From positions 1 through 35,157 of the forward strand of contig RQOU01000074.1 of NCBI GenBank assembly GCA_008373165.1: DNA of 35,157 nt. The letters are read 5' to 3'. The position numbers and the translations under genes are program-made. The notes beneath the pieces are model-generated. The model searched no databases and was not told where the DNA came from. It saw nothing but the letters and a program-made list of their open reading frames with translations. Shown piece after piece: positions 26,557-29,329 of this stretch. Origin of the DNA: SAR202 cluster bacterium (lineage in GTDB: Bacteria; Chloroflexota; Dehalococcoidia; Lucifugimonadales; Lucifugimonadaceae). Each line of letters opens with the position of its first letter. Position 1 is the first letter of the stretch.

Positions 26557-27915
26557 TCAGTTGGCGGTTAAAGTCTTGGCAGTTTTGAATATTTTTAGAG
26601 TTCGCTCCCTCGCAGTTATATGATCGATGATGGGAGGGGGGTACATTGCAGTCTTCTTATGGTAGGACCATGGGCTATGGATGTATTTGTCAGGGATATT
26701 TACCAGTTCTGGTACCCACCGTCGAACATAGCTACCATGGGGGTCGCATTTCACGCCTTGGATTACAGGGTTGAATATCCGAAAGTACGGGGCGCTGAAA
26801 TAGGCAGTGCCCGCAATCCATTGCCAGTTACCTGAGTTTGCAGCCGTGTCATGATCAACTAGTGTCGATTGGAAGTGGAGCATTCCGAGTCTCCAGTCAA
26901 CCAGCAGATGCTTAACCAGAAAAGAAGCGACTATCATCCGTAGCCTGTTATGGATCCAACCTTCAGTTGAGAGTTGTCGCATGGCAGAGTCGACAATTGG
27001 GTATCCAGTTTCTCCGTTAACCCAGCGTGAATAATCATCCTCATGATTTTCCCAGGGAATGCTTAACAGTGATGCATCGAGAGTTCGTAATTCCATTTCT
27101 GGAGTTTTATAAAGGATGGCAGAAAAATAATCTCTCCATGCGATTTGCCTTTGATACTCTTTCGCAGATTCGCTCATGGTTGGGTTTTTCTCTACCGAAG
27201 CCTTTGCGGCTTTAAACAGGTCTGACTGAGAGAGGACTCCGTTTGATATAAATGGTGAAAGGCGTGAAGTGGTTGTTATGTCGACCCGATCTTTCTCCAA
27301 AGAATAGTTGGTTAACAATCCTCTGGTAGCAAAAAAGTCCCGTTTCAATATGGATAGGCTGTCGCGTTTGTTCGCTATTGCTATTGACTTTTTGTCGGGC
27401 TGGAGTGATCTGAATACGATGGACTTTGTAGCGACCGGATTGCTCTTTCCAAGTGGTATAGATTGCCAGGCATTGAAAAAAGACCGGAAATTACCTGTTG
27501 GCAGTGAGTCCGGGCATTTTGAATACCTGCGGCTTTCATCTTTGATGGGTAGTAGCTGAAATTTGGATTTGGCGCGTCGGAAAAGGTTTTTCGATTTGTC
27601 ATCATCTGGTCGAAGTGAGTAAACCACCGAGCTCTGTGTTGAAGCCAAAATGTCTGCTAATTCTTGGATGGGCTCACCCGCGCGAACTAGTACGCTTCCT
27701 CCGTATTTACGTACTTCCTCGATGAATCTTGCTAACGATTCTTGGAATATACGAGACCGAGGATCATTACCTGTAAACCACGAAGTGTCATCTGCAATCA
27801 CGACGGGTACTACAGTTAGATGATTCTTCTGCGCTCTGGTTATGACAGGGTTATCGTGGACACGAAAATCTCTGCGCACCCACCATATGGCCGATCTTTC
27901 TGCAGGGGTTCGCAA
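26557..27915 (-). CDS. phr: Deoxyribodipyrimidine photolyase (cryptochrome/photolyase family)
   Basis: WWVRRDFRVHDNPVI, W-R-D-Y/GYPIVDSAMRQLSTEGWIHNRLRMIVASFLVKHLLVDWRLG, NSGNWQWIAGT...YFRIFNPVIQGVKCDPHGSYVRRWVPEL. Confidence 0.95.
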   Translation of the reverse strand: MRTPAERSAIWWVRRDFRVHDNPVITRAQKNHLTVVPVVIADDTSWFTGNDPRSRIFQESLARFIEEVRKYGGSVLVRAGEPIQELADILASTQSSVVYSLRPDDDKSKNLFRRAKSKFQLLPIKDESRRYSKCPDSLPTGNFRSFFNAWQSIPLGKSNPVATKSIVFRSLQPDKKSIAIANKRDSLSILKRDFFATRGLLTNYSLEKDRVDITTTSRLSPFISNGVLSQSDLFKAAKASVEKNPTMSESAKEYQRQIAWRDYFSAILYKTPEMELRTLDASLLSIPWENHEDDYSRWVNGETGYPIVDSAMRQLSTEGWIHNRLRMIVASFLVKHLLVDWRLGMLHFQSTLVDHDTAANSGNWQWIAGTAYFSAPYFRIFNPVIQGVKCDPHGSYVRRWVPELVNIPDKYIHSPWSYHKKTAMYPPPIIDHITARERTLKIFKTAKTLTAN

Positions 27916-27923
27916 GATACTGC

Positions 27924-28520
27924 TTACTGAAGTTCGAGATTCGTGTTTTGAATCTGGCTCAGAAATTCAGAACGTAATGAGCGGTCGTTTTTGAACTGTC
28001 CGGTCATCGATCTGGTTGTCATACGCGATTTAGGCTTACGAACTCCACGAATCGCAGAACACATGTGGGTAGCAGTTGCCACAACCGCCACTCCAAGTGG
28101 CTCTACCAAAGTAGTGATTGTTTCAGCGATTTGCCTAGTCATACGTTCCTGGATTTGCAATCGACGTGCGTACATATCAACAATTCGTGGAATTTTCGAT
28201 AGTCCGACTACCTTTTGATCAGGGAGATACGCAACATGAGCTTCTCCTACAAAGGGCAGCATGTGATGTTCGCACATGCTATGGAATTCGATACCAGTTA
28301 TTATCACCATGTCTTCATGTTCGACATCGAACAGCGCTCCGTTCAGTAACTCCAAGGGATCGACGGAATAGCCGCTAAGTATCTCTTTGTACATGCGCGC
28401 CACTCTTGAAGGAGTTCCAATTAGGCCCTCTCGGGTTGGATCTTCTCCGACGGATTTCAGGACGTTAGTGACAGCTTCGGTGAGCGTGTTGTCGGATCGG
28501 GTCTGAGGTGATGTGATCAT
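27924..28520 (-). CDS. folE: GTP cyclohydrolase I
   Basis: [78 protein letters not shown], Zn-ligand Cys in [10 protein letters not shown]. Confidence 0.97.
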
Positions 28521-28910: not shown

Positions 28911-28957
28911 AAATAGTAAAATAACTACTAAATCCCACATTTATGTTAGGTGCGTTT

Positions 28958-29329
28958 ATGAAAACCAAGTACACCGTCGTGTATGACGCTCAATGTGTTG
29001 TTTGAAACCTGTTTCGTCGCTGGGTTCAGCGAAGAGATCATAGGCCTGTTCTATTTTTTTTGGGCAACACAGATTCTCGAGTCATAGAATTGTCGTTAAA
29101 ATCAGGTTTAGTCCAAAATACACTTGTGTGTATTTTCCCGAATGGTCAGGTCACTCATGGAGCTCGGGCGGTATTCTATGTTGTCAGCCAAACAGGCGGG
29201 AAAATCGGATTTTTGGCAAGTTTGTTACGAAATCGATTTGTGAGTTGGCTGTTTGAACCAGGATACAAAATATTTGCCCGTCACAGAGGGAGATTTGCAT
29301 GGTTGGCAAGGGTATTACTGGATCACTGA
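28958..29329 (+). CDS. Candidate selenoprotein: DCC-family (DUF393-like) thiol-disulfide oxidoreductase with CxxU motif (UGA at 29003-29005)
   Basis: In-frame reading: MKTKYTVVYDAQCVV-[TGA]-NLFRRWVQRRDHRPVLFFLGNTDSRVIELSLKSGLVQNTLVCIFPNGQVTHGARAVFYVVSQTGGKIGFLASLLRNRFVSWLFEPGYKIFARHRGRFAWLARVLLDH-stop. TGA is exactly where DCC proteins carry the second Cys of YDGxCxxC. Coding continues without a frameshift. Confidence 0.75.
29008..29044 (+). promoter_or_regulatory. Putative bacterial SECIS element
   Basis: CCU GUUUC G UCGCUG [GGUU] CAGCGA A GAGAU CAU AGG: perfect 6-bp upper stem (29017-29022/29027-29032), GGUU apical loop (29023-29026), 1x1 mismatch, lower 5-bp stem and outer 3 bp. There are 17 nt between UGA and the loop. 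Confidence 0.7.

Follow-up and report, generated by a model that had tools for sequence, protein, structure and literature searches.

A probable selenocysteine form of the DCC (PF04134) family in SAR202 bacteria and other Chloroflexota

The whole stretch of DNA analyzed here, referred to as the window, is 35,157 nucleotides long and is a contig of a 1.94-Mb MAG (SAR202, Chloroflexota). From sequence evidence, and with a probability that we put at roughly 94%, we conclude that a locus in this window is an intact selenoprotein gene of the DCC (PF04134) family, here named dccU, whose UGA at position 29003 would be decoded as selenocysteine (Sec). Our analysis went beyond the first-pass annotation of the locus in revealing a phylum-wide family, motifs of the UxxU and UxxC forms, and a folE/photolyase neighborhood. 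We consider it likely, with somewhat less assurance than for the locus itself, that Sec-DCC proteins are an unrecognized, phylum-wide group in which each Cys of the CxxC motif was swapped to Sec and back independently and in which the two UGAs of the UxxU form, nine nucleotides apart, share one SECIS.

The dccU frame (positions 28958 to 29329, forward strand) starts at ATG 28958, continues through MKTKYTVVYDAQCVV to an in-frame TGA at 29003 to 29005, and then stays open to the TGA at 29327 to 29329. An AGGTG ribosome-binding-like site, read from the sequence, is found at 28948 to 28952 on the same strand, 5 nt before the ATG. Translation with TGA as U yields a 123-aa product with Sec at residue 16, in a CVVU motif. 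The match to PF04134, the DCC1-like thiol-disulfide oxidoreductase domain, spans the TGA (residues 7 to 113, E = 5.7e-14) and scores 53.8 bits versus a gathering cutoff of 27.8. The motif YDAQCVVU fits (Y/F)D-x-x-C-x-x-C, with UGA/Sec replacing the second Cys; readthrough translation and the domain match thus confirm the initial claim that the TGA (forward strand) sits on the second Cys of a DCC-type motif, YDxxCxxC. This column is aligned with the Cys of homologs, its flanks are conserved on both sides, and it is C or U in 110 of the 110 homologs compared. No NCBIfam model scored above its cutoff in a scan of dccU, a tblastn search of a plasmid collection gave no match, and promoter-like sites near the gene were not above chance. 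The family profile, run against PDB sequences, returned only calmodulin (E ∼0.6), a chance hit.

The Sec machinery that the first-pass annotation had said to look for is all present in the genome that carries dccU: tRNA-Sec with the anticodon TCA (67.7 bits), selA (337.8 bits), selB (337.7 bits over the frame), and selD (374.4 bits), which itself carries a TGA in frame, within a CAGU motif. The host selD (L025, G000:C94) is a selenoprotein gene itself, with a CCCAGG-TCC-TGGG-type hairpin downstream. Sequence comparison gave two sorts of named relatives: MAGs of the Chloroflexota/Dehalococcoidia and the closed PacBio chromosome (CP046147) of "Candidatus Lucifugimonas marina" JH1073, a SAR202 bacterium that is in culture. 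The JH1073 homolog reads YDASCAVURAFIRWVQRND, and both tRNA-Sec and selB are present in that genome. Because this cultured relative has the same TGA in its closed genome, it is very unlikely that the codon reflects an error of assembly.

The presence of selB follows that of Sec-DCC genes. In the GTDB family of the window, all 12 genomes with the TGA have selB over the cutoff; among the Cys-only genera, selB is missing in 4 of 4 genomes tested for g6 and in 2 of 3 for g7. Across the larger data set, selB was over the cutoff in 35 of 37 Sec-DCC genomes versus 47 of 66 Cys-DCC genomes (Fisher P = 0.005, with related genes treated as independent). Two Sec-DCC MAGs, G585 and G787, have no detectable selB, and three of the 12 same-family genomes (G001, G016, and G029) have selB and no clear tRNA-Sec match. 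Most genomes in the comparison are MAGs, and these gaps are most simply explained by MAG incompleteness or assembly gaps.

A bSECIS hairpin, TCGCTG-GGTT-CAGCGA, is located within the coding sequence at 29017 to 29032 (forward strand) and is supported by its fold, covariation, enrichment in Sec genes, and pattern specificity. The stem pairs 29017 to 29022 with 29027 to 29032 (TCGCTG/CAGCGA), and the apical loop, GGTT, occupies 29023 to 29026, 17 nt after the UGA. The published bSECIS limits are a loop of 3 to 9 nt, a stem of 4 to 16 bp, G as the first or second loop nucleotide, a distance of 16 to 37 nt from the UGA, and an MFE of at most −7.5 kcal/mol (PMC13188914, Fig. 2). With its GGTT loop, 6-bp stem, and 17-nt spacing, the window hairpin is within these limits; the folding energy is −8.6 kcal/mol for the hairpin alone and −15.1 kcal/mol for the 50-nt region. 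The hairpin originally noted, with G at the start of a loop 17 nt after the UGA, was borne out by the fold. An Rfam scan for a SECIS family gave no match.

The pattern of substitutions suggests that the hairpin is maintained as RNA. In all 12 genes from the window's family, the stem aligns without gaps as (N)CGYTG-GGTN-CARCG(N) and lies 17 nt downstream of the UGA. Four CxxU genes of family f141 have the same stem core, and their outer pair is G-C. Among 15 distinct sequences, 90 of 90 pair cells are paired (100%). Pair 15-30 is found in the states CG (7), GC (4), UA (3), and UG (1), and pair 18-27 is found as CG (13), UA (1), and UG (1). Both sides change at these two pairs and each of the four columns involved is a third codon position, indicating that selection acts on the RNA. 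The covariation score was reached by 0 of 500 shuffles, and slid structures pair just 26 to 63%. Other lineages have a different stem sequence in the same place, e.g., CGCGCTGG-GTCCG-CCGGCGCG and CCGCCTG-GGT-CAGGCGG.

Regional MFE compared with synonymous shuffles has little power in GC-rich genomes, so we used a position-specific hairpin test, which called for a stem of 6 bp or more, G as the first or second loop nucleotide, and 16 to 18 nt from the second motif codon to the start of the loop. Such a hairpin is present in 30 of 37 Sec genes (4.4 expected from synonymous shuffles) versus 3 of 73 Cys genes (3.3 expected), a difference with a Fisher P value of 5e-17 between related genes that are not independent; the strict hairpin is missing in 7 of the 37 Sec genes. 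Among the three Cys genes that carry such a hairpin, that of G683 (L162) is nested in a UxxU/UxxC clade and has kept a strong SECIS-like hairpin, which may be what is left of a SECIS after a reversion from Sec to Cys. A search of 296 genomes for exact matches to TGA-N12-CGYTGGGTNCARCG gave 14, 12 of which are in DCC genes. The other two, which are not in any DCC gene known here (G887:C1:1551667-1551695 and G920:C1:132352-132380), are probably due to chance. Where genes of the window's family are UxxU, the same hairpin is 26 nt from one UGA and 17 nt from the other; both distances are inside the 16- to 37-nt rule, so a single SECIS could serve both.

An alternative to be weighed is that the UGA is read as Trp or Cys, either by a suppressor or because the code has changed throughout the genome. 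Nothing but Cys or UGA occurs at the column, and Cys insertion would fit the alignment, but UGA is a normal stop in the host genome: within the window, frames of at least 190 codons end in TAA (13), TAG (10), or TGA (6). Other genes of this genome use TGA as an ordinary stop, so its general reassignment does not explain dccU. Neither does another residue account for the way in which Sec-DCC tracks selB, nor for a hairpin that meets the bSECIS criteria and is nearly missing from Cys homologs. We regard this alternative as highly improbable and favor decoding as Sec.

To describe the family, we searched 149 related genomes for same-family homologs and then assembled a phylum-wide set by searching at class level and by scanning 399 Chloroflexota genomes with PF04134. 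In the same-family search, 12 genomes of the GTDB family, including that of the window, have TGA at the dccU column; the motif is CxxU in nine of them and UxxU in three (G047, G054, and G064). The comparison with homologs proposed at the outset therefore returned Cys or TGA at this column with both flanks conserved, the TGA form being found in 11 other same-family genomes. Among the 110 Chloroflexota homologs inspected, 73 are CxxC, 19 UxxU, 13 CxxU, and 5 UxxC; every TGA-containing gene seen was taken and Cys genes were only sampled, so these counts are not frequencies. The 37 Sec-DCC genes come from at least nine family-level groups, and UxxU is the commonest Sec form found here. On a family tree inferred with the motif columns masked, in which many forks are weak, the Sec/Cys state requires 10 changes or more, at least 6 of which are forced by well-supported branches. 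On the same masked tree, with the same weak forks, the four-state motif required 14 changes.

Several observations concern individual homologs. G843 has two DCC paralogs in one genome, UxxU and CxxC (L150 and L163), showing that Sec and Cys forms can share a genome. Many proteins of families f141, f64, and f159 (L138 to L157, L110, and L116) end in a conserved Cys pair, TPEC-x-x-P-x-x-x-C, which is not found in the window's family and might act as a further redox pair or bind metal. The C-terminal in-frame TGAs of f73 and some f141 homologs were considered as Sec codons and rejected; they are the ordinary stops of these genes.

Could dccU be a pseudogene, a DCC gene killed by a nonsense mutation whose lesion was inherited by relatives? 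A single UGA in an otherwise intact frame and the Cys found at that column in many DCC homologs would both be expected of it. Yet in the 37 Sec-DCC genes, from at least nine family-level groups, stops occur at the two redox columns only; the domains contain no in-frame stop outside these columns, no TAA or TAG, and no frameshift. Purifying selection persists downstream of the UGA, with dN/dS of ∼0.1 to 0.33 in 9 of 10 pairs (changes are too few for G009/G014, the tenth), and the hairpin is kept by compensatory synonymous changes. The only decayed copy seen, a separate one in G545, has TAA elsewhere and neither Sec nor a SECIS. Thus, the pseudogene test set by the first-pass annotation, which looked to sister genomes for other nonsense codons or relaxed dN/dS, found neither at this locus, and we strongly disfavor decay, giving it a very small chance, relative to an intact selenoprotein gene.

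The remaining alternative is that the UGA is a true stop and that translation restarts at TTG 29060 to give an 89-aa protein without the redox motif. The mechanical ORF list contains exactly this product (29060 to 29329, forward strand), from the one ordinary ORF at the locus, and a standard gene caller would give it in place of dccU, a possibility that the first-pass annotation had named. A restart is nonetheless most unlikely: upstream of the UGA, YDxxC is conserved in all homologs; between the UGA and the TTG, RWVQR is invariant in the Sec forms of the window's family; and beta-1 and helix 1 of the modeled fold would be lost. The earlier proposal of a Sec-containing DCC protein overlooked by annotation is instead supported by the machinery, the conserved UGA column, the hairpin, and purifying selection, all of them read from genomes.

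An AlphaFold model of the dccU product (pLDDT 81) has a beta-alpha-beta start with the motif at a helix N terminus. Foldseek matches to Trx, Grx, QSOX, and DsbD in the PDB are weak (best E values ∼0.01 to 0.03 and above, low TM-scores). We envisage that SelB and tRNA-Sec would decode UGA 29003 as Sec under the direction of the coding-sequence hairpin at 29017 to 29032 and that CVVU, at the N terminus of the first helix, would form a selenenylsulfide. With both redox positions Sec, a diselenide is possible, and UxxU homologs may form one at the N terminus of helix 1. The product is most likely a thioredoxin- or glutaredoxin-like selenol/thiol-disulfide reductase, presumably cytosolic, which would reduce disulfides or oxidized thiols; its predicted function is selenol/thiol-disulfide exchange.

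In the window, dccU adjoins folE, encoding GTP cyclohydrolase I (27924 to 28520, reverse strand; PF01227, E = 5e-75), and a DNA photolyase gene (26557 to 27915, reverse strand; PF03441, E = 2.2e-75, and PF00875). A photolyase gene lies directly beside Cys-DCC genes in two other lineages (f19 and G716), in an operon in one and adjacent in the other. In the f19 relatives L052 and L053 (G093 and G127), the Cys-DCC and photolyase genes belong to a tight same-strand run, which in L053, the one scanned for domains, reads DUF1365-SDR-polyketide_cyc2-DCC-photolyase. In G716 (L133, 829 to 1893), the DCC domain is fused in frame after a polyketide_cyc2-like stretch, recognized by eye, and is followed by photolyase. 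Light-induced clusters of Pseudomonas include photolyase, folE, and SDR genes (PMC9758184), and light inhibits the growth of L. marina (PMC10444878). The folE/photolyase context, and this context only, suggests a role in photo-oxidative defense or in the repair of light- or oxygen-damaged thiols, a role that we hold to be possible if rather doubtful.

If Sec-DCC is accepted, the catalog of about 119 selenoprotein families gains one in SAR202, a globally abundant ocean clade with a cultured member in which Sec-DCC can be tested. Conventional annotation would shorten or miss such genes. The series CxxC, CxxU, UxxC, and UxxU in one small domain offers a direct test of the contribution of each selenium atom, and double-UGA genes offer a test of one SECIS serving two nearby Sec codons. 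Cys homologs without the hairpin, together with the hairpin-keeping G683, provide snapshots of Sec gain and loss.

PF04134/DCC is not among the 119 prokaryotic selenoprotein families of a 2026 review (PMC13188914), and in the open-access literature we found no paper linking DUF393, DCC, or PF04134 to selenoproteins or selenocysteine. As judged from these comparisons, Sec-DCC would be an unlisted selenoprotein family that rests on a known Cys family and is unusual in the motif states it combines. The gene surroundings recall the Pseudomonas LitR clusters, which contain phrB, folE, SDR, and furan fatty acid synthase genes (PMC9758184): the likeness, one of gene content, consists of photolyase and FolE beside dccU and also of the DUF1365-to-photolyase run of G127. 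Unlike the LitR clusters, most Sec-DCC genes lack a conserved neighbor; no neighbor is conserved among Sec-DCC genes across lineages, and most loci are without any. The DCC1-like oxidoreductases (PF04134/DUF393), such as the YuxK type of Bacillus subtilis and Arabidopsis DCC1, share with Sec-DCC the domain, the YDGxCxxC motif, and the overall length, and may share a predicted thioredoxin-like fold. Arabidopsis DCC1 is reported to function as a thioredoxin and to limit mitochondrial ROS (PMC6603150). Unlike these known proteins, Sec-DCC would have Sec, specified by UGA and an internal SECIS, in place of one or both motif Cys residues. Sec at the C-terminal position of CxxC is likewise found in SelW-like proteins (PF10262) and in Sargasso Sea hypothetical protein 1 (PMC1088965, PMC13188914), now the AhpD-related NF041238 (PMC13188914); both belong to domain families other than DCC. 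Both redox positions are Sec, as in the UxxU form of DCC, in Prx-like proteins, SelL-type diselenide proteins, the metal-binding NF041115, and FmdB (PMC13188914, PMC2398784), the SelL diselenide paper being taken here as cited in PMC13188914 (its reference 40). Unlike these other UxxU selenoproteins, DCC displays CxxC, CxxU, UxxC, and UxxU within one phylum, with apparent repeated switching among them.
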